A program made the position numbers and the translations under genes. A DNA stretch of 39,508 nucleotides from a virus. Within the stretch, counting starts at the first letter, position 1, and every line of letters starts with the position of its first letter. Where the stretch lies: the IMG/VR virus record IMGVR_UViG_3300007734_000673, positions 1 to 39,508 of that record. One strand, given 5' to 3'. Of the stretch, positions 5,005-32,135 are shown in pieces. The notes below the pieces were generated by a model. The model was not told the DNA's origin, did no database searches, and worked only from the letters and a program-made list of their open reading frames with translations.

Positions 5005-5079
5005 TGCGAGTGCTAAGTTTGTCGAAGTGTCAACGGCGGTTGACCAATAAACCGATCATTGAGGGGCGACCCTCTACGA

Positions 5080-5128
5080 AACACCCAGATGAATCACCGC
5101 CGTGATTTGTCTGGGTTGTTTTCGTTTT
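5080..5128 (+). terminator. Rho-independent terminator before the ParB-methyltransferase gene
   Basis: AACACCCAGATGAATCA (5080-5096) can pair with TGATTTGTCTGGGTTGTT (5103-5120), using G-U pairs, around a short CCGCCG loop, and is followed by TTCGTTTT. A smaller hairpin GAGGG/CCCTC lies just upstream at 5070-5083. The position, 15 bases before the next ATG, could also make it an attenuator. Confidence 0.6.
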
Positions 5129-5142
5129 ATGAGGTTGTTTCG

Positions 5143-6384
5143 ATGGCAAAGCTCAAGGGACTTGCAAAAGACGACGAAGCCAAGATCAGCGTTCATCCGG
5201 CGGCGGACTTGTTCCCAATGCTGTCAGATACCGAGCTTGCAGATCTCGCAAAGGACATCAAGGAGCACGGCCTCGTACATCCGGTCGTGATGTTCAAAGG
5301 CGTGCTGCTCGATGGTCGCAATCGTCTGGCAGCGTGTAAGATCGCGGATGTGGAGCCATCGTTCATCGAATACGATGGAGACGATCCGGTTACATTTGTG
5401 ATCAGCGTCAACATCATGCGTCGACAACTCGATCCGAGTCAGCGTGCGGGTGTTGCCGTCCAACTCGAACCGATGCTCGCGATCGAGGCGAAGATTAGGC
5501 AAGGTCAACGCACAGACATTGTCGCAAATTTGCGACAATGTAATCACGGCAAGGCTAGCGATCAGGCGGCAACAATGGTTGGTGTCTCAGGGCGGATGGT
5601 GCAATATGCCAAGGCGATCAAGAATGCAGATCCCGAAGCGTTCAATCAAATCATGGCAGGCGAGGTGACAGTTAATAAAGTCTGGCACGGGATACAAAAA
5701 CGCAAGCGTGAGGCGATCAAGGTTGCGCAGAATAATCAAGTGGAGATTCGCGCAACGGTCACGATCGCAGAATGCACGGAGTGGCTAGCAACTCAAGAAC
5801 TGTGCGATCTACTGCTGACCGATCCTCCGTACTCAACGGACGTACCTGACATCCAATCGTTCTCCGTCAGTTGGTTGCCGATCGCACTCGCAAAGGTGAA
5901 GTCAACGGGCCGAGCCTACGTTTTTATCGGATCTTATCCCGACGAGCTGTTGGCTTATTTAACGGTGTCAAAATCAATCACGGCAATGAAGCTGGAGAAC
6001 GTGCTCGTCTGGACGTACCGGAACACGCTAGGGCCGATACCGAAAATCAAATACAAAAACAATTGGCAAGCGTGCCTGTATTTTGTTGGGCCGGATGCTT
6101 CACCGCTCAACTGTCCAGAGATGCTCGAACAATTCAGCGTTCAGGACATTAGTGCACCAGATGGCCGACAGGGCGACCGATATCATGAGTGGCAAAAACC
6201 GATGGAAATTGCGGAGAGATTCATTCGTCACTCGACGACCGTAGGGCAACTGGTGCTCGATCCATTCTCAGGCACAGGGACGCATCTACTGGCGGCGGCA
6301 AAACTTGGTCGAGTTGCACACGGCTGCGACATCAACCAAACAATGATCGACATCGCAGTTAAGAGAGGATGTCACAATGTTTGA
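5143..6384 (+). CDS. ParB-domain / DNA methyltransferase fusion (beta-class N4C/N6A)
   Basis: 413 residues. The N-terminal ParB-like domain includes ADLAKDIKEHGLVHPVVMF and LLDGRNRLAAC, followed by a helix-turn-helix-like stretch (ASDQAATMVGVSGRMVQYAKA). The C-terminal methyltransferase has catalytic DPPY at residues 227-230 and the AdoMet site DPFSGTGT at 373-380. This motif order is that of beta-class amino-methyltransferases, so the product should be N4-methylcytosine or N6-methyladenine. ATG 5143 has GAGG upstream; an upstream in-frame ATG lies inside the terminator. The gene contains a perfect 26-bp palindrome (5516-5541). It sits between terminase and portal genes, so it may mark phage DNA near packaging. 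Confidence 0.85.
   Translation: MAKLKGLAKDDEAKISVHPAADLFPMLSDTELADLAKDIKEHGLVHPVVMFKGVLLDGRNRLAACKIADVEPSFIEYDGDDPVTFVISVNIMRRQLDPSQRAGVAVQLEPMLAIEAKIRQGQRTDIVANLRQCNHGKASDQAATMVGVSGRMVQYAKAIKNADPEAFNQIMAGEVTVNKVWHGIQKRKREAIKVAQNNQVEIRATVTIAECTEWLATQELCDLLLTDPPYSTDVPDIQSFSVSWLPIALAKVKSTGRAYVFIGSYPDELLAYLTVSKSITAMKLENVLVWTYRNTLGPIPKIKYKNNWQACLYFVGPDASPLNCPEMLEQFSVQDISAPDGRQGDRYHEWQKPMEIAERFIRHSTTVGQLVLDPFSGTGTHLLAAAKLGRVAHGCDINQTMIDIAVKRGCHNV
5516..5541. repeat. Perfect 26-bp palindrome inside the ParB-methyltransferase gene
   Basis: The half-site ACATTGTCGCAAA is followed without spacer by its exact reverse complement. It encodes DIVANLRQC in the linker after the ParB domain. A perfect palindrome of this length is not expected by chance in a sequence this size. 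It may be a protein-binding site or a strong RNA hairpin. Confidence 0.9.
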
Positions 6385-6983: not shown

Positions 6984-7198
6984 CCTATGGCTCATCCGCA
7001 TCTGATCGACTGCTCGCAGTTCGCGAGGCGATCAACACGACGCTAACGGCGCAGAGCTACTCCGCTGCCGGGCGATCGAAGTCTATGGCCAGCCTCGGCG
7101 AGCTACGCAAGCTCGAAAAAGAGCTTATGGACGAGGCGTCGAACTCCGGCAACGGCTCGATGTGCAGCCTCGGCATGCAGCAGAGGTTCGGCCTATGA
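6977..7198 (+). CDS. Head-tail joining protein, gpW-like
   Basis: 73 residues just upstream of the portal gene, where lambda-type phages carry gpW. The pattern is typical: an N-terminal helix (ASDRLLAVREAINTTL), a small beta segment with SYSAAGRSKSMASL, and a second helix (GELRKLEKELMDEA). Such proteins complete the head before tail attachment. The stop overlaps the portal start (ATGA). The ATG lies within an inverted repeat. Assignment rests on size, position and helix pattern. Confidence 0.6.
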   Translation: MTTYGSSASDRLLAVREAINTTLTAQSYSAAGRSKSMASLGELRKLEKELMDEASNSGNGSMCSLGMQQRFGL

Positions 7199-9219
7199 AC
7201 GCCATTGAGCGCGTCATATCCGTTATCTCTCCAGCATGGGCACTGTCCCGCAGTTCGGCACGCGCGACGCTGAATCAGATCGAAGCGTTTGCTGGATCGC
7301 AAGGCGGTTACGAAGCCGGCAAGTTAAACCGCAACACCAAGGGGCGTCTCGGGTCAGCGATCAAAGAGCATGCGATACCAGTCGCACAGCTTGACCGATT
7401 GCGTTGGCAGTCGTGGAATCTGTGGCGGAACAATTCGTACGCTCGCAAGATTGTCCGCAGTCTCGAATCAAAAGTCGTGGGTCAGGGGATGCAGCCTGAA
7501 TCACAGGCCATCAACGACGACGGCACGCCGAACGTCGAGTTCAGGGCGAAAGCCAAAGCACTCTGGATGTCGATCCAAAGCGGCTTTGATTATCGCGGCA
7601 TGCCTGGTCGAGGTGGCGTGACATTCGGTGGCCTGCAACGGCTTGCGTTGCGTGCGTGCATCCTGTCGGGCGAGACGCTTCATCGTATCGTACCGATCAG
7701 CCAAGCCGATCAATTTCAGCGAGACATCCCCGTTCCGTTGACTCTACAGATGATCGACGCTGCGAGGCTGTCGGATCAAACGCATCCGCAGTACGGCGAG
7801 CAACTCAAGAACGGCAACACAGTCTATCGCGGCATTGAGATAGACACCGAAGGAAAGCGCATTGCGTATTACATCGGGCAATATTCGATCGGGATGAACG
7901 AGCAGACGTGGGGATCTCTGGTACGCATACCATCGGAGCAGATTGCACACCTGTTCATCGAAGACGACATCGACCAGATGCGTGGCGTACCGTGGTTCGC
8001 AGCGGCACTGCTCAACATGCGCGACACCGACGACCTGCAATACAACGTGCTGAAGGCGTCGGCGATGTCGGCGTGCGTGGTCATGGGTTATCGCCGGCCA
8101 ACGGGTGCGAGTCGATTCGGGCTTGCACAAAGCGGCGTTGCTGACGTTACGACCTCGGACGGTACGGACTTGACGGATGCTGACGGCAACCAGATCACAA
8201 AGTTGGAACCGGGCATGTTTGTTGACCTCGGGCGTGACGGATCTCTTGAAGGGTTTTCGCCCAATCAGCCAAACACAAATGCTGAAGCATTCATCCAGCA
8301 TATGTTGCGTGGTACAGCGGCAGGATTCAGCGGCGTCAAGTCATCGACGGTCACGGGCGATTATCGCGGATCGTCATTCTCGTCCGAACGGTCTGCGGAC
8401 AACGATACATGGCCGGAGATTCAGGCTCTGCAAGAGTGGTTCGCAACGTCGTTTTGCCAACCGACATACGAGAGCGTAGTTCGTGGCGGCGTTCTTGCCG
8501 GCTACTTCGATGGCATCGTTTCGCCAGAAGAATTTTCAGCTTCACCTGGTCGGTATACGCAGGCAAAATGGCAAGGGCCGATTCAGCTCTCGATCAATCC
8601 CGTTGACGACATCAACGCGGCATCAATGCGGATGCACTACGGCCTATCGTCACCACAGATGGAGGCGGCAAGGCAGGCCGTCAACTGGCGGGACGTGATC
8701 GCAGACGTGGCCGAATTCCGTGGTGCTGTCGAAGCGGCGGGCCTGCCGCCGGAGTACGCAAATTCGGTGATGGACGTGAACAGCCAAGACATTATCGCAC
8801 AGACGATGGCAGCAACTGCACAGCAGGATCTAGCGGCGAAGTCACTGAGGGGCAGGGCCAGCGAAGCGATCACCGCTCCTGATTACGTTTCATCAGCAGC
8901 GGCTCGCGGTCTCGAATGGAACGCTGACGGCAAGTCCGGAGACGGCGTCACGGACAAGACGATACGCGAAGCCAGAGACATGGCGAACGGCAGTATCAGT
9001 GAAGACAAAGTGCGGCGAATGGGGCCGTGGTTCGAACGTCACCAGTCGGACATGAGCGCACCAAAAAACGATCCATCAAACGAGGACTTCCCCGGTGCCG
9101 GAGCTGTCGCATGGGCACTGTGGGGCGGGCCGACATCGGGCGACATCATGCGCGCCGCCAAGTGGGCTCAAGGTGAAGTCGGAAGGCTCGATCGGCTCGC
9201 AGCAAAACAGGAGTCATGA
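7195..9219 (+). CDS. Portal protein, lambda family
   Basis: 674 residues forming the DNA entry ring of the capsid. Family features include LRWQSWNLWRNNSYARKIVRSLESKVVGQG near residue 65, GETLHRIVPI, the IAHLFIEDDIDQMRGVPWFAAAL segment, and KSSTVTGDYRGSSFSSERSA. The start ATG 7195 overlaps the upstream stop. After ~560 residues there is an extra C-terminal domain (IREARDMANGSISEDKVRRM, FERHQSDM, AVAWALWGG). I recognise it as a small module found attached to various phage head proteins, with no known function. Confidence 0.9.
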   Translation: MNAIERVISVISPAWALSRSSARATLNQIEAFAGSQGGYEAGKLNRNTKGRLGSAIKEHAIPVAQLDRLRWQSWNLWRNNSYARKIVRSLESKVVGQGMQPESQAINDDGTPNVEFRAKAKALWMSIQSGFDYRGMPGRGGVTFGGLQRLALRACILSGETLHRIVPISQADQFQRDIPVPLTLQMIDAARLSDQTHPQYGEQLKNGNTVYRGIEIDTEGKRIAYYIGQYSIGMNEQTWGSLVRIPSEQIAHLFIEDDIDQMRGVPWFAAALLNMRDTDDLQYNVLKASAMSACVVMGYRRPTGASRFGLAQSGVADVTTSDGTDLTDADGNQITKLEPGMFVDLGRDGSLEGFSPNQPNTNAEAFIQHMLRGTAAGFSGVKSSTVTGDYRGSSFSSERSADNDTWPEIQALQEWFATSFCQPTYESVVRGGVLAGYFDGIVSPEEFSASPGRYTQAKWQGPIQLSINPVDDINAASMRMHYGLSSPQMEAARQAVNWRDVIADVAEFRGAVEAAGLPPEYANSVMDVNSQDIIAQTMAATAQQDLAAKSLRGRASEAITAPDYVSSAAARGLEWNADGKSGDGVTDKTIREARDMANGSISEDKVRRMGPWFERHQSDMSAPKNDPSNEDFPGAGAVAWALWGGPTSGDIMRAAKWAQGEVGRLDRLAAKQES

Positions 9220-9220
9220 C

Positions 9221-11461
9221 ATGGCAACCCGTAACAGATCAGCGAGACGACATGAACACGATCAAAAGTCTATGGGCTTTCGTGCGTTCTCGATGCGGAC
9301 GAGCAGTCTCAACCTTGAAGACAGGTCAATCGAGGCGGATGTTTCTACCGAGAATCCGGTCGAGATGCCGGACTTCGTGCGTGGCGAAATGGTGCCAGAA
9401 ATACTGGTTAGCAGCGGCGCGATTCTACCGGCGTCACGGCAGGTTCCGTTCCTCGACTCGCACCAACGATCCAGCGTCAACAACCAACTCGGATCAGCCA
9501 GAGAACTAGCGGTCGTCAAGGACAAGTTGACCGCCAGACTGCAATTTTCATCGGCAGCCGAGGGCGAATTCACGAAGGTTCGTGAAGGCCATGTGACCGA
9601 TGTTTCAGCCGGTTATCAGATCCTAAAAAAGAAATATGTGGCACGTGGCGAGACAGCAACGATCGATGGCCGTGACTACACAGGGCCAGCGAACGTTGTG
9701 ACATCGTGGCGGCTGATGGAAGTTTCCTTGACGCCAATCGGGGCCGACTCGATGGCAAAAATGAGGGGGTTGAACCCCGAATCGTGGTTTTCTAACCCTA
9801 CAGAAAGCGAGTTTGTGATGAACGAAAAATTAAGAGCAGCGGCGGTATTGCGTGGGATGTCAATCAGTTTGACCGACGATGAGGCGCAGAGCTGGATCGC
9901 GGACAACATGTCAGCGGCACCAGCGGCATCAGCAGCACCGACCGGCGAAAAAATGGCCGACATGACACCGGAAGAAAAGAAGAAAAAAGACGAGGAAGCT
10001 GCAATGGCAGCAATGATGTCTGGCAAATCTCTTGACGCGCAAATCGAATTACGGGTAGCAAATGCCATCGCCAAATTTGAGCGACAGAGAGCGGCGTTCT
10101 TTATTGAGTCGGACGCTACTTGTAAGCTCGCAGGCAAGCCAAACGAAATCGATGCCTGTCGCAAGATGCAGACCATTGAGCAGGTCCGAGCACATCTGAC
10201 AGAAGTGCAGGCGAAAGACGGAATATCGATCGGATCAGGTCACAACCTTCGTACGGACAACAATGGGTTTGAGCGCATGGTTAAAGACATGCAAACTTCA
10301 TTGAGTCTGCGGGCGTTGAACACATCGAGCAGCAATTCTACTGCGATCGACTCTGTGTTTCCTGTCGAGCAACGCGGCAAAGGTCACTCAACATTTAAGC
10401 ACGCATCACCATGGCAGATGGCTGAAGAATTTGTGCGATCGAGCGGCATCGATACGAGGGGACTCACGCGCGAGACAGTGGCCATCTGTGCGATGTTCGG
10501 GCCAGAGCGCGCGGGTCTCGGTCAACGCGGCGACGCCGCATATCACGTCACGGGCAACTTCTCGAACGTCACGTTAGACGCCGTGAACAAAAGTCTGATG
10601 CTCGGCTATGTCGAGACCCCGAGCACATGGAAGGGGCCGATTCGACAAGCGGCGAGTGTGCAGGATTTCAAAACGATCAATCGAATTCGCATGGGCTCGA
10701 TTGCAAATCTGCCGGTCTGGAATGACAACAAGAATCCTGAAATGGCGTCATTCACGGACGCCAAAGAATCGTACGCTGTCGAAGCCAGGTCTCTGGAGAT
10801 CAGCTACAGCTTCAGGCTTCTCGTTAATGATGACATGGACGTTCTGAGTCGCACTCCTGCAATGATGGGTGCGGCGGCAGCTCGAACTGTCAACGCTGTC
10901 GCATGGTCTCAAGTCACCAGCAACCCGACGCTGGGTGCAGACAGCATTGCACTGTTCTCAGCGGCGACAGGTGCACGCAAGCGGTCAAACCTGACTACGG
11001 GGGCGGCAACTCCAACAGTGGCAACACTACAAACGTTGTCGAATCTGATGCGGCAAATGCGAGGCGAGAACACACCGGAAGGAGCCGAAAGCTCGGACAT
11101 CCTAAACCTGACGCCTCGCTATCTGGTCGGGCCATCAGCGTTGGACACGACCATCAAGCAATTGGTTTTGTCGGCGTACGATCCCGCAGCAAACCAGTTC
11201 CAGGTGTACAACACGGCGACTCAATTGATCCCTGTGATTGAGCCTCTATTGGATGCAAACTCGGCGACAGCGTTTTACCTGTTCGCCGATCCAAGCAACC
11301 AGATTGACACGATCGAAGTCACGTTCTTGGCGGGGCAAGAATCACCTGTGACACGGTCGTTCCTCGATGACCGCAACCTGTCTCAGTCGATAACGATCAT
11401 GCAGACCTTCGCGGCCAAGGCGATGAACCATCGCGGCGTTCAGAAGCACGCCGGGGTGTGA
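9221..11461 (+). CDS. Prohead protease-major capsid protein fusion
   Basis: 746 residues. The first ~180 are a prohead serine protease: FLDSHQRSSVNNQLG with candidate catalytic His81 and TDVSAGYQI with candidate Ser129. A linker rich in Ala, Glu and Lys (around 250-290: MTPEEKKKKDEEAAMA) resembles a scaffold segment. The C-terminal half is the major capsid protein, with the ASVQDFKTINRIRMG region, AVEARSLEISYSFRLLVNDDMDVL, and a C-terminal beta-rich part. ATG 9221 follows AGGAG. A single polypeptide carrying protease, scaffold and shell implies self-cleavage during head assembly. Confidence 0.85.
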   Translation: MATRNRSARRHEHDQKSMGFRAFSMRTSSLNLEDRSIEADVSTENPVEMPDFVRGEMVPEILVSSGAILPASRQVPFLDSHQRSSVNNQLGSARELAVVKDKLTARLQFSSAAEGEFTKVREGHVTDVSAGYQILKKKYVARGETATIDGRDYTGPANVVTSWRLMEVSLTPIGADSMAKMRGLNPESWFSNPTESEFVMNEKLRAAAVLRGMSISLTDDEAQSWIADNMSAAPAASAAPTGEKMADMTPEEKKKKDEEAAMAAMMSGKSLDAQIELRVANAIAKFERQRAAFFIESDATCKLAGKPNEIDACRKMQTIEQVRAHLTEVQAKDGISIGSGHNLRTDNNGFERMVKDMQTSLSLRALNTSSSNSTAIDSVFPVEQRGKGHSTFKHASPWQMAEEFVRSSGIDTRGLTRETVAICAMFGPERAGLGQRGDAAYHVTGNFSNVTLDAVNKSLMLGYVETPSTWKGPIRQAASVQDFKTINRIRMGSIANLPVWNDNKNPEMASFTDAKESYAVEARSLEISYSFRLLVNDDMDVLSRTPAMMGAAAARTVNAVAWSQVTSNPTLGADSIALFSAATGARKRSNLTTGAATPTVATLQTLSNLMRQMRGENTPEGAESSDILNLTPRYLVGPSALDTTIKQLVLSAYDPAANQFQVYNTATQLIPVIEPLLDANSATAFYLFADPSNQIDTIEVTFLAGQESPVTRSFLDDRNLSQSITIMQTFAAKAMNHRGVQKHAGV

Positions 11462-19200: not shown

Positions 19201-19596
19201 ATGGCAGTTTATGCGTTCGCCAGCGAGGACGATTTCAAGCGCGCAGTGCGAGCCATCAAGCTGTCTGAGTCGTCACGTCTGGACATCACCCGCCAGCGTG
19301 GCCGATGGCCGGTAGCGGGCAGTGGCGGCGAAAGCGGCATGGTCGAGGGTCGATTGACAAGCGATCTTGATCCTGCGGGCAATTCTTTTACGGGCGGGAC
19401 GACGTTCACTTTCACGTCGTATATCGACAGCGGCAGCAATGCAATGCCTAAAGTCTTGACACCAGGTGAAGGATATGATGGCGTCAATCGATCAACGACG
19501 CTGACAGCATCCGCAGGAGTGTATATCATCTGCGCCAAGATCAACGATGAGTGGCGACCGATCTGGGTTGACAGTAGCAACGTCTGCACGGAGTGA
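19201..19596 (+). CDS. Small tail-region protein, unknown
   Basis: 131 residues starting three bases after the beta-helix gene. The N-terminus is helical (ASEDDFKRAVRAIKLSESSRLD); the rest is Gly/Ser/Thr-rich beta sequence (RGRWPVAGSGGES, STTLTASAGVYIICAKINDEWRPIWV). I cannot assign a family. The immediate spacing on both sides places it in the tail operon, probably as a structural adaptor. Confidence 0.55.
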   Translation: MAVYAFASEDDFKRAVRAIKLSESSRLDITRQRGRWPVAGSGGESGMVEGRLTSDLDPAGNSFTGGTTFTFTSYIDSGSNAMPKVLTPGEGYDGVNRSTTLTASAGVYIICAKINDEWRPIWVDSSNVCTE

Positions 19597-19600
19597 ATCA

Positions 19601-22342
19601 GTGACCGGCCAAATTACGAGACGACCGTACACTGAGTGCCCGTATACATGGACTACTACAATCTCTAACATCAGCAATGGCAGTGGCACAGTCGGCGACA
19701 AGCAATGCTACGGCATGAACGTTGACGGCTACGACATGAAATTTCGGGCGTGCGATTCAACCGGCAACAAGCTGATTTGGGTCGGCCAATGTTTTATACC
19801 GTCTTTACCAGATGAAGATTGCTTGGCGAGAAACTGCTGCAATGTGACGACGTCGGTCGATGTTCCATCGTTTGGCGCAACGATACCTGTCAGCCAACAA
19901 GGGGTTGACGGCGAAAACAGTCAAAACGAAGATTTCGGGAGCATCGTAGAACGAGGAGCTCCCGAAACATTTTTTGAGCCTTATTTTGACACTGAAATAA
20001 AATACTTTTTTTCGGGCGGAAGATTTGAGCTTAACCAAATAAGTGACCCAGACAATCTTTTTTTAGCAACCCGCGCATGTTTGCCGCTGCAAGATTTCAA
20101 GCGAGAGATAGTCGGTGAGATTGCGTCGAATCAGTATTATATAGATGATGTTGGAACACCGATTTACCGCAACAAACTCATTCTAGGCAACCTCATTGTT
20201 TTAGTTCGTAATGCTATAGGCCCTACAGTACTGCCGTATATTATTTTTCCAGAATCTATAAATTGCGGCGTAAAAGACGCAGTTACTATTATTTCGGTTG
20301 AACCATCGGCTGGAGGCGTGAATTATCAATATCAAACCACCGACAATATTTACTACTACGACACAGATCCTGTTGGTTGCGAACGGACAACGACGGCCAC
20401 GCTGATTGGGTCGAGTGCTTTTAGTTTTTCAAATAACAACTATTTGTCGCCATACGACGAATTTGCACCGTCATCAGTTCAGATCACGACTAAATTTCGT
20501 CCTGGTAGAAATACACCAGAGGGCACAATCGGCCCTGATGACGGCGACCGTGGCAACGCGACGTGGACTCTTGAATACGACATCGAAGAAGAACTCTGGA
20601 CGCTGCACAGTTTTGATCGCATTGAAAATCCGATCTATACGCTAGTGGATGCCGATCCGTGCGTTGGCCTGACTAAGATCCTGACGCGAGTCGAAGGATC
20701 CGGCGACAACGGATGCGAGGTCTCACCCAATACCGTCACGATAACAAGAGGCTGTCCAGAGGATCTCAGCTATAGACCAAGAGACGCGCGCATTCGCACG
20801 CAATGTGCCCGCACGATCCAACGCAAGGGCTGCGATTGTCAGAACATGCCAATCGACGAGCGATGGCGATCTGTTGAGAAATGCGGGAGCATTTTAACAG
20901 CCGGCTGCGAAGACTACGGCGACGACGTAAAATGTCGATATCCAAAGAATCAATTGACGTGCAGCTTCTGCGGCGACGATGACATACCTTGCACATACGA
21001 GGCGTTGTTCGGCGGTGGCATCGTCGGCACGACTGGGCTCTGCGACATCATCTACAACGGGACAGACATTGCAGCGAGCACCGTCACGCTGCGTCAGAAA
21101 TGCCGATTTGAAGGGCCGTGCGATTGGGTTGCTGTCGGGCCGACAGGCGATCCAAGGGACGGCGTGGTCGGTCGCGAGCCGTACTGTTTGTTGTGCGCCG
21201 AATTCACCGTCGGATCGTGTGCGTCTAACTGCACATGGGAGGCGGTGCAAGCGGGATTGTGTCCAGCTAGCGGCAAGCCGGGGCTGTTGAATCCGCCAAT
21301 AAACATACTCGCAAAATGGGGCGTCTCATGGGTGCTGAATGTCGCAGAGCCAGCAACGCTGGCTTACGATCATCCGTCGTTCGGCGTGCTGGTCTACACG
21401 ACATCTGAGGACGAGCCGTTTTTGTGCGACAACGTCAACACGATGTACCTGACAGCTCAAGGCAACCTACCGGACGGCGTGATGCCTGAGTCGATCTGCG
21501 TGCGACCTCGGTACTCAGGCTGCGGCGGGTCGATGACGTACGACGTCAAGTCTACCGTTTACGACACGGTTGAGAATCAAATTGCTTGCTGCGATCCGGC
21601 TTGCGGATCAATCGGGCCGATACCGATCATCGTGCGCTGCTGCACCAATTTTGAGGAATGCTCGACAACGTTCACGGCGCAGACAACTCTTCTTGGCAAA
21701 GACTCACCGGCGGGGCCATCGTACCTGGGATCATGCACACTGCACGGCGTACTATGGACGGGCGTTTGCTACTGCGACGGCGTGCGTTGGAAGACGGACT
21801 GGTATTGTAAGTCGCCTCGAGAATTCTTCGTTACCACAACGCATACGCACACTTGCTGTCCGTTGACGCTGTCCATCGAGTATTGGCCGGATCAATTCGG
21901 CGGCGTCAAATGCTGCCCGGTTCAAGAATGCCAGTGCTGCGACACAAGCGGCGTTGATTACGAGACGCTGGACATGTCGATCACATTTCCCGGCGATTGT
22001 GCACAAGACCGACTACCGGCAGCGTGCACATTCTCGCGGCCAGTGACGATGTCGCTGAGCATGGTACGGGCGGGAACGTACCCAAACCATGTCTGGACGG
22101 TTGATCCGATTCTGTGCGATCCTGACTATGGATTCGATATGTCGGTGAGTTGTCTCGACGGCATTTGGAGCCTGTCTTACAATTTCGGCGGCGGCATACC
22201 AGCGGCATTGTGCAACCCGAACAGCGGAACGCTAACCGCGACCAACAACGCACTCTGTCCCGCGATTCTGCTCGAGTGGACGAATCCGATCGTCTGCGAC
22301 AATTCGTGCGTTTTGGTCAGCAATATTACGATCACCAGTTAA
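19601..22342 (+). CDS. Large cysteine-rich tail protein
   Basis: 913 residues with about 58 cysteines, many paired (RNCCN, IACCDPAC, VKCCPVQECQCC). This suggests an extracellular, disulphide-cross-linked tail tip or fibre. The start is GTG 19601, eight bases after GGAG; an in-frame ATG at 19547 would overlap the previous gene. Residues ~105-300 (DNA ~19915-20500) are nearly cysteine-free and the DNA is noticeably AT-rich, with a terminator-like hairpin at 19933-19967. This looks like an inserted or swapped domain. A receptor-binding role is inferred from position and composition. Confidence 0.6.
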   Translation: MTGQITRRPYTECPYTWTTTISNISNGSGTVGDKQCYGMNVDGYDMKFRACDSTGNKLIWVGQCFIPSLPDEDCLARNCCNVTTSVDVPSFGATIPVSQQGVDGENSQNEDFGSIVERGAPETFFEPYFDTEIKYFFSGGRFELNQISDPDNLFLATRACLPLQDFKREIVGEIASNQYYIDDVGTPIYRNKLILGNLIVLVRNAIGPTVLPYIIFPESINCGVKDAVTIISVEPSAGGVNYQYQTTDNIYYYDTDPVGCERTTTATLIGSSAFSFSNNNYLSPYDEFAPSSVQITTKFRPGRNTPEGTIGPDDGDRGNATWTLEYDIEEELWTLHSFDRIENPIYTLVDADPCVGLTKILTRVEGSGDNGCEVSPNTVTITRGCPEDLSYRPRDARIRTQCARTIQRKGCDCQNMPIDERWRSVEKCGSILTAGCEDYGDDVKCRYPKNQLTCSFCGDDDIPCTYEALFGGGIVGTTGLCDIIYNGTDIAASTVTLRQKCRFEGPCDWVAVGPTGDPRDGVVGREPYCLLCAEFTVGSCASNCTWEAVQAGLCPASGKPGLLNPPINILAKWGVSWVLNVAEPATLAYDHPSFGVLVYTTSEDEPFLCDNVNTMYLTAQGNLPDGVMPESICVRPRYSGCGGSMTYDVKSTVYDTVENQIACCDPACGSIGPIPIIVRCCTNFEECSTTFTAQTTLLGKDSPAGPSYLGSCTLHGVLWTGVCYCDGVRWKTDWYCKSPREFFVTTTHTHTCCPLTLSIEYWPDQFGGVKCCPVQECQCCDTSGVDYETLDMSITFPGDCAQDRLPAACTFSRPVTMSLSMVRAGTYPNHVWTVDPILCDPDYGFDMSVSCLDGIWSLSYNFGGGIPAALCNPNSGTLTATNNALCPAILLEWTNPIVCDNSCVLVSNITITS
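19933..19975 (+). repeat. Intragenic terminator-like hairpin
   Basis: TTTCGGGAGC (19933-19942) and GCTCCCGAAA (19958-19967) are perfect 10-bp inverted repeats around a 15-base loop, and a run of six T follows (CATTTTTTGAG). The structure lies inside a coding region, at the start of the AT-rich segment. Confidence 0.6.
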
Positions 22343-22761: not shown

Positions 22762-22788
22762 AACCGACGTTCATCGTCGGTTTTTTTA
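22762..22788 (+). terminator. Rho-independent terminator ending the late block
   Basis: AACCGACG and CGTCGGTT form a perfect 8-bp stem around TTCAT, followed by a run of T. It separates the tail operon from the early promoter 35 bases downstream. Confidence 0.9.
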
Positions 22789-22822: not shown

Positions 22823-22851
22823 TTGACAGCGACCGATGATGTGTTTATACT
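22823..22851 (+). promoter_or_regulatory. Sigma70-type promoter of the early operon
   Basis: TTGACA (22823-22828) is a perfect -35 box. After exactly 17 bases TATACT (22846-22851) is a five-of-six -10 box. AT-rich DNA upstream (22795-22820) could serve as an UP element. Transcription would start near 22858, about 40 bases before the first ATG. Confidence 0.85.
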
Positions 22852-22880
22852 AATAAACGTGACGAGCAACGAACAACACA

Positions 22881-22902
22881 AACACAAAGGGACACACGAT
22901 GA
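22881..22902 (+). promoter_or_regulatory. Shared translation leader, copy 1
   Basis: ACAAAGGGACACACGATGA with three further identical bases upstream recurs exactly at 23278-23299, and in modified form before csrA. The ribosome site is AAGGGA. The GGGA core could be a CsrA target. Confidence 0.7.
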
Positions 22903-23237
22903 CAACTGCTATTCGGTCAGCAATGGACAACTACAACGAGTGCGACGACGGTTTTAGCGGCTACGAACTGATGTGCGCTCTGCAGTCTGCAGTCAAGGAC
23001 GCGATCACTGACATTGCAGAACGGCACGGCTGCACAGTTTCGGACGAGACCGCAGGCAGCGGGAGCTATTACATTAGCATTGACCGAGATGATGCAGACG
23101 GAGAGGTTGACGTATCGCTGAAAATTCGCGTTTCAGACCATGCTGCTCGGTACGGATGCAACTGGTCGTTTGAGCCGACTGACAGTGACAAGTCGATCGC
23201 CAATGGCCTCGCGACAATCGAACGGAAGTGTCAGTGA
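22899..23237 (+). CDS. Early hypothetical protein
   Basis: 112 residues, acidic, the first gene after the early promoter. Visible parts are a helical N-terminus (GYELMCALQSAVKDAITDIAERHG) and a beta region with alternating Asp residues (YYISIDRDDADGEVDVSLKIRV). No known motif. Early promoter-proximal phage genes often encode host-takeover factors, but nothing in this sequence shows such a role. Confidence 0.6.
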   Translation: MTTAIRSAMDNYNECDDGFSGYELMCALQSAVKDAITDIAERHGCTVSDETAGSGSYYISIDRDDADGEVDVSLKIRVSDHAARYGCNWSFEPTDSDKSIANGLATIERKCQ

Positions 23238-23277
23238 TCTACCGCGGGCTATGTTGCCAGCGGGACAGAACGAAACG

Positions 23278-23299
23278 AACACAAAGGGACACACGATGA
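23278..23299 (+). promoter_or_regulatory. Shared translation leader, copy 2
   Basis: Identical over 22 bases to the leader at 22881-22902, including AAAGGGACACACGATGA. The downstream proteins are unrelated, so the conservation is in the non-coding part. It arose by duplication or is held by regulation. Confidence 0.7.
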
Positions 23300-23718
23300 A
23301 ACAATACCTCGAGTCATCTGAATGTATCAATTGGCTGCTGAACGACACCAACGCGAATTGGTCGCGTCAGGGCGCGCGAGCATTGGTGGCACATCTGGAA
23401 GAGCAGGAGATCGAGACCGACAACGAGCTCGAATTCTGCGTATATTATTGCCGCAAGAATTACACCGAATTTTCATCGGCGTTTGCGGCCGCGGTGTTCA
23501 ACGGCTGGGAACCGGAATCCGTCGATGATAACGATGATAACTCGAACGACGATTATGACGACGAAGATTACGTGCCATCAGATCAACAGATATACGATGC
23601 AACATTGTGGCTGGAGGATCGCACAACCGTGATTTTTGCCGAGTATGACAGGGTTGACCGTTGTGGACGGCACCCAGCGATTTCGTGTAACGCGGTGGTG
23701 ATTGAGAATTTTGCGTGA
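23296..23718 (+). CDS. Early acidic hypothetical protein
   Basis: 140 residues. The N-terminal half is helical (SSECINWLLNDTNANWSRQGARALVAHLEEQE). The middle is a highly acidic tract (DDNDDNSNDDYDDEDY). The C-terminus is beta-rich and holds two Cys. The acidic tract suggests DNA mimicry or disorder, but no family is recognised. The start ATG 23296 is set by the shared leader; longer readings would begin inside the previous gene. Confidence 0.6.
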   Translation: MKQYLESSECINWLLNDTNANWSRQGARALVAHLEEQEIETDNELEFCVYYCRKNYTEFSSAFAAAVFNGWEPESVDDNDDNSNDDYDDEDYVPSDQQIYDATLWLEDRTTVIFAEYDRVDRCGRHPAISCNAVVIENFA

Positions 23719-23742: not shown

Positions 23743-23764
23743 AACACAGGGAGGGCACACGATG
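23743..23764 (+). promoter_or_regulatory. Shared translation leader, csrA copy
   Basis: AACACAGGGAGGGCACACGATG is the same leader with a changed centre. It contains ACAGGGA, which fits the ACARGGA core of the CsrA-binding consensus and overlaps the ribosome site. Autoregulation is the obvious inference. Confidence 0.65.
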
Positions 23765-23911
23765 TTGGTTTTATCGCGCCGGGTTGACGAGTCGATCCGC
23801 ATCGGTGATGCGGTTGTAACCATTATTAGCGTCGCTGGAGGTGTCGTCAAAGTCGGCATCGTCGCGCCACCGAGCGTCATCATCCTTCGCACAGAACTGG
23901 AGAAGCCGTGA
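23762..23911 (+). CDS. csrA: CsrA-family RNA-binding translational regulator
   Basis: 49 residues, beginning MLVLSRRVDESIRIGD and continuing with GGVVKVGIVAP and LRTEL. CsrA family hallmarks are all present: the MLxLxR start with Arg6-Arg7, the IGD turn, the V.GIxAP strand, and the late Arg (43 here, equivalent to Arg44 of Escherichia coli CsrA). CsrA dimers bind GGA motifs in mRNA leaders and block or alter translation. It lies third in the early operon behind a GGGA leader and overlaps the next GTG. It lacks the flexible C-terminal tail of longer homologues. It could retune host mRNAs, phage early mRNAs or both. Confidence 0.92.
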   Translation: MLVLSRRVDESIRIGDAVVTIISVAGGVVKVGIVAPPSVIILRTELEKP

Positions 23912-23985
23912 CCGTATTCGTTTTTTTAGGGACGCTGGCCGTCGTCAGCGTTGCCTTGTGTTTAATCGTCGAGAGGACAAGATGA
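23908..23985 (+). CDS. Single-span membrane micropeptide
   Basis: A GTG overlapping the csrA stop (GTGA) opens a 25-residue frame that is almost entirely one hydrophobic helix (VFLGTLAVVSVALCLIV) and ends with a basic ERTR. That topology is typical of tiny phage membrane peptides. No other evidence supports expression. The next 144 bases contain no gene or clear regulatory site. Confidence 0.45.
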   Translation: MTVFVFLGTLAVVSVALCLIVERTR

Positions 23986-24129
23986 CAAATCATGCGGAGT
24001 TTTCATAAATCATAGCATCGGCTTGGGCGGCAACACGAAGCGTCGATACTGCGTGGCGACGGCCACAAAGCATACCTAGTTCCCCGCCTGAGCTGGTGCA
24101 TTGTTTTCAGCATTTAACGCGGAGGTTCG

Positions 24130-24339
24130 ATGACAACGAGAAAAACTAGAGTTAAAGAAATGAAACCCCGCAAGCCGGGTGGCGGGCGTAAACACAGGCT
24201 GACAGTGCGGCAGATGGCGTCAATTCAAGCGTCTGCGGCATCGACGAAAGATCTGGCTGAGAAATACAAAGTCTCCAAGATGACGATCTGGAATTGTCGC
24301 AACAAGATAACATTGACAACAAAGGGGGAGAAACGATGA
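24130..24339 (+). CDS. Small HTH DNA-binding protein
   Basis: 69 residues, very basic. A resolvase/transposase-type helix-turn-helix is visible: LTVRQMASIQASAASTKDLA followed by EKYKVSKMTIWNCRN. The N-terminus is rich in Lys/Arg and Gly. It probably binds DNA as a small regulator. GGAGG precedes the ATG, and its stop overlaps the next start (ATGA). Confidence 0.65.
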   Translation: MTTRKTRVKEMKPRKPGGGRKHRLTVRQMASIQASAASTKDLAEKYKVSKMTIWNCRNKITLTTKGEKR

Positions 24340-24572
24340 CAGACATTGACGACCGACGCAGGGAGATCATGCGAAAACTAGACGAGCGGTACTACGCTCA
24401 CTATGCACGCATCGACGCAGAGACAGCCGACGAGCGAGCGTTACGGCTCGGACATTTGACGTCGATCGATTTGCGAATGCGGGGACAGCTACGCTATTCA
24501 AATGGCAAATGGGTCTATCATCATTCTGGCAATGCGGACACGGCAGGGAGCGACTATGACTATCGAGAGTGA
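24336..24572 (+). CDS. Hypothetical protein
   Basis: 78 residues, helical and charged (DIDDRRREIMRKLDERYYAHYARIDAETADERALRLGHL). No family is recognised. The ATG overlaps the upstream stop and follows AGGGGGAG. Its 3' end overlaps the annealing-protein gene by 17 bases. It may work with the recombination function, but only position suggests this. Confidence 0.55.
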   Translation: MTDIDDRRREIMRKLDERYYAHYARIDAETADERALRLGHLTSIDLRMRGQLRYSNGKWVYHHSGNADTAGSDYDYRE

Positions 24573-25260
24573 GGAGTTTGGAGAGCGGGCGGCGATCCGT
24601 GAATTCGATGGCCGCATGAGTAGGGAGGAGGCTGAACAGGCGGCGACAAAAGATTTAAATCCATCAACAACACCGGGGGGACAAATGCAGACAAGCGCGC
24701 AGATTAAAGAGTTGGCTGAGGCTTTATCAAAGGCACAGGGGCAGATGTCACCGGCCAAAAAAGACAAGGACAATCCGTTCTTTAAGTCAAAATACGCAGA
24801 CCTCGCTGCGATTTTCGACGTGATCCGAGGGCCATTATCGGCGAACGGACTAGCAATCGTGCAGGGAATTGAGGACGGTGCTGTCGGTGTAATCATTACG
24901 ACGAGATTGTTCCACTCATCAGGTCAGTGGGTCGAGTCAACGATGACGCTAAAGCCCACTAAAACAGATCCGCAGGGCGTCGCATCGGTCGCGACATACG
25001 GGCGAAGGATCGGGCTGCAAGCGTTGGTCGGCGTCGCGGCCGATGTGGACGACGACGGCAACGAAGCTTCAAAGCCATCGGTCAAGACGGCGGCGACACC
25101 AGTCAAGACAATCAGCGCGGCACAGCGAGATTTTAACGCATGGGTCAAGCCGTACATCGACAGCGGAGCTATCAGCAGCGACGATGTCAAGAAGTTGATC
25201 GCTGAGCACAAAAACGACTACGCGAACACATTGTTGACCTTAAAGTTGGCGTTGACTTGA
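24556..25260 (+). CDS. ERF-family single-strand annealing protein
   Basis: 234 residues. The family signature is clear: IKELAEALSKAQGQMSPAKK, then NPFFKSKYADLAAIFDVIRGPLSANGLAIVQG, TTRLFHSSGQWVESTMTL, and ASVATYGRRIGLQALVGVAADVDDDG. These proteins anneal complementary single strands in phage recombination and replication. The C-terminal part (FNAWVKPYIDSGAISSDDVKKLI) is a helical accessory domain. The ATG follows CAGGGAG. Partners nearby include SSB, a helicase and RusA-like and HNH nucleases. A terminator follows at 25351. Confidence 0.85.
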   Translation: MTIESEEFGERAAIREFDGRMSREEAEQAATKDLNPSTTPGGQMQTSAQIKELAEALSKAQGQMSPAKKDKDNPFFKSKYADLAAIFDVIRGPLSANGLAIVQGIEDGAVGVIITTRLFHSSGQWVESTMTLKPTKTDPQGVASVATYGRRIGLQALVGVAADVDDDGNEASKPSVKTAATPVKTISAAQRDFNAWVKPYIDSGAISSDDVKKLIAEHKNDYANTLLTLKLALT

Positions 25261-30867: not shown

Positions 30868-30942
30868 AATCTGGAGGAGTGTAAGACGCCGTTTGTGGAG
30901 ACAGTTAGAGAGGCGTTCCCGAGCGTGAAGGTGGTCAAATGA
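30865..30942 (+). pseudogene. Short coding-like remnant before the C5-methyltransferase
   Basis: This frame reads like the tail of a protein (LEECKTPFVETVREAFPSV) and its stop overlaps the methyltransferase ATG (ATGA). A stop at 30856 closes it upstream and there is no normal start. It could be the end of a gene that once preceded the methyltransferase elsewhere. This is a weak call on a very short sequence. Confidence 0.3.
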
Positions 30943-32135
30943 TTTACGGTTCGGTGTGCAGCGGCATCGAGGCTGCGTCTGTGGCTTGGCACCCGTTGGG
31001 CTGGAAGGCCTCGTTTGTGTCTGAGATTGATAATTTCCCCCGCGCCGTATTGGCGCACCATTACCCAGAGGTTCCGCTACATGGCGATTTCACCACCATC
31101 CAAAACGGACAATATGAGTCAATTGACCTTCTGGTCGGAGGAACTCCCTGTCAGTCATTCAGCATCGCAGGATTGCGAGGCGGACTGGATGATGACCGTG
31201 GCAACCTGGCCCTTGAATTCCTCAAGCTTGCTCAACGACTGCGCCCCCGATGGGTGGTTTGGGAGAACGTCCCCGGCGTCCTGTCAAGCAACAGAGGGCG
31301 GGACTTTGGTTCCATCCTCGCGGGCTTGGGGGAAGTCGGGTATGGGTTCGCCTACCGAGTTCTTGACGCTCAATATTTCGGCCTGGCCCAAAGACGCAAA
31401 CGTGTGTTCGTTGTCGGATATCTTGGAGACTGGCGACGTGCCGCAGCGGTTCTTTTTGAGCGCGAAAGCCTGTCAGGGAATCCTGCGCCGAGCCTTGAAA
31501 CGGGGCAAAGAGTTGCCAAAACAGTTACAGCAAGCCTTGGAACAGGTGGCGCAGACTACGATAAAAAAGAATTGATTGTCGGGATTGATTACGAGAACAA
31601 CGGTCACGGCCCAATCCGCAACCAATTAGGCGCAGGCGTATGGTGTGGGTTTAGAATGTTGTCGTTTGACGAATACGCTGCGGATGGCACGGCCAGCACA
31701 ATGAAAAGGCGTGATTACAAAGATGCGACGGATTTGGTTATTATGCCTTCGCATATTGTTCGCCAAGACACCGCAACGCTATCGGCAGCGGATAGTGGAT
31801 CGAATAGGACGCCGGTAATTGCATTCACCAGCAAAGACTACGGCGGCGATGCCACCGTTGATCTGTCACCAACCATGCGTTCGATGGGACATGCGGAAAG
31901 TCACGCTAACGGGGGTGGGCAGTTGGCGGTTTCATCGGCCTCCGCCGTTCGCCGCCTAACCCCCACCGAATGCGAGCGACTGCAAGGCTTCCCAGACGGT
32001 TACACAAACATCCCCTATCGCGGCAAACCAGCCGCAGACGGCCCCAGATACAAGGCTCTGGGCAATTCTATGGCGGTTCCAGTCATGCGCTGGATTGGCG
32101 AGCGGATTCAGATCGTGGACAACCTGCCATGCTAA
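30939..32135 (+). CDS. DNA cytosine-5 methyltransferase, intact
   Basis: 398 residues with all main motifs: I (SVCSGIEAASVAW), IV with catalytic Cys71 (GGTPCQSFS), VI (WENVPGV, Glu109-Asn110), VIII (AQRRKRVFVVG), a recognition region of about 190 residues, IX (RRLTPTECERLQGFPDGY) and X (YKALGNSMAVPVM). It should methylate cytosine in phage DNA, giving protection from host restriction or a substrate for further modification. It is flanked by near-identical 16-bp repeats, and a long alternative-frame ORF lies inside it (31114-31575). Codon choice, with more CCC, looks slightly different from neighbours by eye. These points suggest acquisition as a cassette. Confidence 0.92.
   Translation: MIYGSVCSGIEAASVAWHPLGWKASFVSEIDNFPRAVLAHHYPEVPLHGDFTTIQNGQYESIDLLVGGTPCQSFSIAGLRGGLDDDRGNLALEFLKLAQRLRPRWVVWENVPGVLSSNRGRDFGSILAGLGEVGYGFAYRVLDAQYFGLAQRRKRVFVVGYLGDWRRAAAVLFERESLSGNPAPSLETGQRVAKTVTASLGTGGADYDKKELIVGIDYENNGHGPIRNQLGAGVWCGFRMLSFDEYAADGTASTMKRRDYKDATDLVIMPSHIVRQDTATLSAADSGSNRTPVIAFTSKDYGGDATVDLSPTMRSMGHAESHANGGGQLAVSSASAVRRLTPTECERLQGFPDGYTNIPYRGKPAADGPRYKALGNSMAVPVMRWIGERIQIVDNLPC
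31114..31575 (+). other. Alternative-frame ORF inside the C5-methyltransferase
   Basis: In the +1 frame an ATG opens 153 codons that do not look random: WFGRTSPASCQATEGGTLVP, then CSLSDILETGDVPQRFFLSA and CQGILRRALKRGKELPKQL, ending in amphipathic helix sequence. I recall closely similar alternative-frame products annotated in other phages carrying this methyltransferase type. Conservation could be a by-product of methyltransferase constraint, so expression is unproven. Confidence 0.4.

Follow-up and report, generated by a model that had tools for sequence, protein, structure and literature searches.

A 49-residue CsrA-family protein without the C-terminal helix encoded by a tailed phage

Proteins of the CsrA/RsmA/RsmE family, for example E. 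coli CsrA and Pseudomonas RsmE, are about 60-75 aa long and consist of a five-strand core starting with MLxLxR and a C-terminal helix, H1, which is counted as part of the prototypical CsrA core (PMC7366521). L4 and R44 are critical RNA contacts (PMC7652899). Genes of this family are also found on mobile elements. In 2020, csrA was listed in 30 phages by Sobrero and Valverde (PMC7366521). For coliphage PTXU04, knock-down of csrA led to smaller plaques, and csrA was among the genes which were toxic or interfered with infection when expressed (PMC11879866). RsmQ, a CsrA homologue encoded on a plasmid, reprograms host translation (PMC9928087). Phage CsrAs are known from sequence, while their regulatory targets are almost unknown.

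In this study, we analyzed the csrA gene of a virus whose complete IMG/VR record (IMGVR_UViG_3300007734_000673; 39,508 nt) is referred to as the window. The encoded protein shares with CsrA, RsmA and RsmE the five-strand core, the MLxLxR start and the equivalent of R44, but comprises 49 aa, lacks the helix and has one residue deleted near β-2. As a regulatory csrA of a tailed phage it resembles those of Pseudomonas, Vibrio and other phages (PMC7366521), gp28 of PTXU04 and the PHROGs families 9500, 5527 and 8397. When E. coli CsrA was used as query, 91 INPHARED records matched; at least one of them stems from a bacterial assembly. These phage CsrAs resemble gammaproteobacterial CsrA, whereas the protein studied here is shorter and hit only two INPHARED records, with E-values of about 7, in a tblastn search at default limits, which is uninformative for so short a query. 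RsmQ is likewise a CsrA homologue on a mobile element and takes over host translation control; its function in a Pseudomonas host was shown experimentally, whereas the window csrA is known here from its sequence. Phage csrA genes as such are already known, and what the window gene adds is a trimmed architecture.

The csrA reading frame is located on the plus strand with an ATG at 23762 and a stop codon ending at 23911, and its product is MLVLSRRVDESIRIGDAVVTIISVAGGVVKVGIVAPPSVIILRTELEKP. The preliminary description of this DNA had proposed a CsrA of 49 residues at this position and had suggested a profile search for verification. In this search, the Pfam CsrA profile PF02599 matched significantly with 58.2 bits (E 8e-16; cut-off 27), and residues 1-47 of the protein were aligned to profile positions 1-48, i.e. 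to the whole core that defines the family in Pfam. Also, the PHROGs entry 'CsrA-like regulator' was matched (E 2e-11), and a sequence search of the PDB returned solely CsrA, RsmE and RsmA chains with E-values down to 8e-8. An AlphaFold monomer model built from 34 homologues reached a mean pLDDT of 88.5, and its 14 top fold matches in the PDB were all CsrA/Rsm structures (probability 1.00; TM about 0.6-0.7), including complexes with RNA, FliW and CesT. In the alignment of the 34 homologues M1, L2, L4, R6, R43 and E45 are invariant. As described before from the sequence, the N-terminus (MLVLSRR) and the late arginine are present, the latter being R43, equivalent to R44 of E. coli. The designation 'full CsrA signature' holds for this N-terminal motif and the late arginine and does not extend to the C-terminal helix, which is gone, or to the core residue that is deleted. 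A record-wide search found no further CsrA in the 39.5-kb virus record. A chance short ORF was ruled out by the profile score and by the dN/dS values given below. Profile, structure, conservation and selection support the assignment of 23762-23911 as a genuine phage CsrA with its RNA-contact residues kept.

The chain ends six residues past R43, so that helix H1, which follows β-5 in other CsrAs, is absent, and the model has at most one helical turn at the C-terminus. Among the family features checked by sequence or model, H1 is the only one missing; membership in the Pfam family is independent of this helix. The 80 bacterial CsrAs found by profile have lengths of 57-253 aa, none being as short as 49 aa, and none of these 80 aligned relatives has the one-residue deletion in the β-1/β-2 region, near the start of β-2. 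Binding of FliW requires the CsrA helix and involves contacts to V51 and N55 (PMC7829508). The 49-aa protein has neither these positions nor the C-terminal extension of FliW-regulated CsrAs. Several shortened CsrAs have been described. A helix-deleted CsrA was still a folded dimer and had lost CesT binding, a mixture of helix-deleted and wild-type CsrA bound RNA, and in one crystal β-5 was disordered without the helix (PMC5864733). An E. coli allele encoding the first 50 of 61 CsrA residues had residual activity (PMC6686035), and C. jejuni CsrA lacking 25 C-terminal residues was unstable (PMC7829508). In the CsrAs known so far, FliW and CesT dock onto this helix; by analogy, its loss may allow an escape from such protein antagonists. 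Several planctomycete CsrAs, e.g. those of L040 and genome G084, also have tails unlike the E. coli helix, and the trimmed end may therefore be a legacy of an accessory CsrA from a host.

Four other IMG/VR contigs encode a 49-aa CsrA which is 92-96% identical and stops at the same codon, and the surroundings of these genes are partly syntenic with the window. Because the contigs were recruited with csrA as bait, their number is uninformative on relatives without csrA. For csrA across the five contigs, dS is about 0.6-1.6 and dN/dS 0.02-0.14. The same 49-aa frame and stop codon in all five contigs together with these values identify csrA as a selected phage gene under strong purifying selection. 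That a longer CsrA had been cut short by a frameshift or by the assembly was ruled out, as the five contigs share the stop codon, which overlaps the start codon of the next ORF. Contig L005 carries a second csrA encoding 53 aa (63-67% identical), and the fragment L034 contains only this second type, which does not have the one-residue deletion of the 49-aa type. Further repeated elements were noticed in the early regions of these relatives. Near-identical hairpins CCCGCTGGC-AACATC-GCCAGCGGG are situated between small early ORFs in L002, L003, L004, L005 and L034 (e.g. L003 about 470-493, 888-912 and 1450-1473); they are mostly without a T-run, and an ACAA(A)GG(G)A leader follows each of them. 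The hairpin immediately upstream of csrA in L003 and L005 has a T-run and is terminator-like. Between divergent operons of small genes, there is a palindromic region with two back-to-back TTGACA promoters (GTCAATAGATAATAT...ATATTGTCTATTGACA) at about 2008-2082 in L002, 148-214 in L003 and 2923-2986 in L004.

The virus record belongs to a tailed phage, encoding a GpA-type terminase, a portal protein and a fused protease-capsid protein. With the terminase, portal and capsid-protease genes on the same record and csrA also carried by syntenic viral contigs, csrA resides in a phage genome. Apart from csrA, some other features of the record were observed. Residues 569-681 of the portal protein (7162-9219) share 72-88% identity with a domain that recurs in numerous viral contigs unrelated in other respects (L120-L132), so that this C-terminal part is, judged from sequence, a mobile or fused domain. 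Genes for a TET-associated glycosyltransferase, ParB-like proteins and C5/N6 DNA methyltransferases (844-1767, 60-893, 5059-6384 and 30939-32135) probably form a DNA hypermodification set. The tail module ends with a Cys-rich protein of 931 aa (19547-22342), which has a homologue in L004 with 48% identity.

The late (tail) genes are separated from the csrA operon by a hairpin resembling an intrinsic terminator at 22762-22782 (plus strand; eight pairs, five of them G-C, with a T-rich tail). It is followed at 22823-22851 by a sigma-70-type promoter, TTGACA-17-TATACT, which agrees with the consensus at 11 of 12 positions and scores higher than any other promoter in the region. Behind this promoter, ORFs start at 22899, 23296 and 23762 on the plus strand, which confirms the earlier placement of csrA as third gene behind a near-consensus promoter. 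The first gene (22899-23237) encodes 112 aa without a known family in the family-library searches, and the second (23296-23718) encodes 140 aa with a weak match to phrog_9974 (function unknown) and homologues of 52-56% identity in L005 and L034. In these two relatives, similar TTGACA promoters precede homologous small genes. Genes 1 and 2 share an identical 21-nt leader, AACACAAAGGGACACACGATG, at 22878-22901 and 23275-23298; its part ACAAAGGGACA occurs twice, compared with 0.02 occurrences expected. Downstream of csrA, genes for a helix-turn-helix (HTH)-like protein of 69 aa (24130-24339, plus strand), an Erf-type single-strand annealing protein (24556-25260, plus strand; the first gene of a replication/recombination module), a ParB-like protein, a helicase and a single-strand binding protein (SSB) were identified by family searches. 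L005 and L034 encode the HTH-like protein with 81% identity, in both cases downstream of the second csrA. Given the replication/recombination genes downstream and the strong promoter, early expression of csrA is a reasonable inference from position and promoter sequence.

The SELEX consensus for CsrA is RUACARGGAUGU (PMC7652899). A CsrA-like site, ACACAGGGAGGG, at 23744-23755 (plus strand) matches it in 9 of 12 positions, lies over the csrA Shine-Dalgarno sequence and is a candidate autoregulatory operator. Among the leaders of the 50 genes called in the window, that of csrA has the highest score. In the csrA leaders of the five contigs 9, 8, 8, 8 and 9 of 12 positions match. For comparison, 60 further leaders from these regions were scored, using ORF starts from a simple script; nine of them have 8 matches, and a score of 9 does not occur. 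The difference has a Mann-Whitney p of about 3e-4, a significance that is overstated as the five leaders are homologous; also, leader scores are inflated because Shine-Dalgarno sequences contain GGA by nature. The CARGGA motif is kept in the csrA leaders of the relatives, and L005 retains CAGGGATG at the cost of a weaker Shine-Dalgarno sequence. With the top-scoring site in its own leader and CARGGA kept in the relatives, translational autoregulation of csrA is likely, and csrA itself would be its best supported target. ACARGGA is not enriched across the window (9 sites found, 8.4 expected). A phage-wide CsrA regulon based on this motif was therefore rejected, a broad phage regulon not being visible.

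Directly on the csrA stop codon (VTVFVFLGTLAVVSVALCLIVERTR), an ORF of 25 codons begins (23908-23985, plus strand), inside which a terminator-like hairpin is located at 23931-23952. Hydrophobic ORFs of 25-27 codons also follow csrA in L002 (2982-3059), L003 (1854-1937), L004 (3835-3915) and L005 (830-907), and in the window and L005 this ORF overlaps the csrA stop codon. The region 23908-23985 could be a conserved membrane microprotein gene, the csrA terminator, or both. Further downstream, a structured RNA of 95 nt is found at 24012-24105 on the plus strand, and at 2677-2771 in L005 and 1584-1678 in L034. A closing stem of 16 bp and an inner hairpin are accompanied by an invariant core, in which the hairpin loop GACG can pair with an upstream CGUC, forming a possible loop-strand pseudoknot. 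In each of the two stems, one pair is changed on both sides with pairing kept, and in the closing stem four more pairs are changed on one side, again with pairing kept. For the three sequences available, this covariation was not significant in a shuffle control (130/500), while sliding the partner destroyed the pairing. The two folded sequences were more stable than their shuffles, with z-scores of -2.9 and -3.4. No Rfam family was matched and no tRNA was found in the element. Two scans of the collection for the element gave only L005, L034 having been found via csrA, and none of 294 Planctomycetota contained it. A function as CsrA sponge of the CsrB type was rejected, since the RNA has no GGA. 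It occupies the leader of the HTH gene in the window and that of the second csrA in L005 and L034, and an identical Shine-Dalgarno block, TAACGCGGAGGT, follows it at the 3' side in the window and the relatives. It is likely a cis-regulatory element of the HTH/second-csrA gene pair.

With respect to the host, INPHARED terminases are 25-27% identical to that of the window (best E 1e-39), while 3 of 392 Planctomycetota genomes contain a closer terminase with 30-37% identity and E-values down to 1e-79; the latter apply to single genomes, so that the two sets are to be compared by identity or bits. At E 1e-60, no terminase was found in 289 Verrucomicrobiota genomes, and at E 1e-30, no portal protein in Planctomycetota. 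All three terminase-bearing planctomycete genomes have 12-17 CsrA copies, an association that rests on two of them because G027 was recruited through its CsrA. Among 99 sampled Planctomycetota, nine or more csrA genes are present in 5 and none in 61, and FliW is present in 33. The genomes G084, G105, G230 and G027 belong to a minority with 9-17 csrA genes, most genomes having none or one. In G084, which has a related terminase, the csrA best matching the window protein (57%) belongs to a putative prophage (L170), where it is 13 kb away from the terminase gene and immediately precedes a gene for phage replication initiation. It encodes 61 aa and has other gene neighbours than the window csrA. 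The prophage region (L170 3587-18361) contains the csrA/replication-initiation gene pair, then Roc-COR and TIR/NB-ARC/TPR genes resembling defence cargo, and then the terminase gene. In G230, homologues of terminase, portal and capsid form a block, and a csrA is found at a distance of 16 kb from it; one of several near-identical csrA copies of this genome has a type I-C cas8c (Csd1) gene about 6 kb away (L172 2048-3796 and about 9550-9702). Some planctomycete csrA copies are thus near prophage genes. From these sequence comparisons, in which two phyla were searched at depth, a planctomycete is our best guess for the host, held with somewhat better than even confidence.

Control of host mRNAs or of the phage's own genes by this CsrA is plausible by analogy to plasmid RsmQ and phage PTXU04 csrA. 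We consider it fairly probable that the protein is a phage CsrA trimmed to its β-strand core, made early, dimeric, and binding GGA leaders to repress itself and host mRNAs. Its gene would be transcribed early from the promoter upstream of the replication/recombination genes, and the product would form the usual strand-swapped homodimer. By binding to GGA leaders overlapping Shine-Dalgarno sequences, the dimer would block ribosomes, repress its own translation via ACACAGGGAGGG and hold down host mRNAs, as RsmQ does; perhaps it would also act on phage early leaders. As the C-terminal helix is absent, antagonists of the FliW type should fail to switch it off, and it would be a constitutive competitor of host CsrAs.

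An action mainly in cis or on phage messages, i.e. a timing device repressing early leaders including its own with little effect on the host, is possible though doubtful. Such a device would fit with the top-scoring CsrA-like site being that of the csrA leader itself, with the identical leader of operon genes 1 and 2 (ACAAAGGGACACACG), in which GGA lies over the Shine-Dalgarno sequence, and with the ACAA(A)GG(G)A leaders repeated before many small early genes in the relatives; however, these other leaders show no more than moderate agreement with the CsrA consensus (6-8 of 12), and the missing enrichment of ACARGGA in the window argues against timing of phage messages. The protein could also interfere with host CsrA as a dominant-negative partner in mixed dimers or as a competitor for CsrA-sequestering RNAs, without targets of its own. 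The purifying selection on L4, R6 and R43 makes this improbable, since a pure decoy would not need RNA contacts, even though the core strands for dimerization are kept, mixed dimers are conceivable with 12-17 csrA copies in the likely host genomes, and the RNA binding by mixtures of helix-deleted and wild-type CsrA (PMC5864733) fits a decoy. There is a very slight chance that csrA is a passenger without function in the phage, either recently captured from a host or a decaying remnant, for which its being shorter than all other CsrAs examined might speak. This explanation is already disfavoured by the dN/dS of 0.02-0.14 and the identical truncation point across the five contigs, and recent capture by an identity of only about 64% to the nearest cellular proteins of the scan.

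The reading as an early, helix-less repressor of its own and host mRNAs might be extended to a self-contained Csr circuit, in which a lineage of Planctomycetota phages would combine a minimal, antagonist-proof CsrA, evolved under strong selection, with a new leader RNA controlling a second csrA in relatives, in hosts whose own CsrA paralogues number at least twelve and are partly prophage-borne; we regard this extension as rather unlikely. Prophages are one suggested source of the large csrA families of 12-17 copies in some Planctomycetota. As a natural minimal CsrA, the 49-aa protein would allow a clear test of whether a core lacking the helix for antagonist docking represses translation constitutively.
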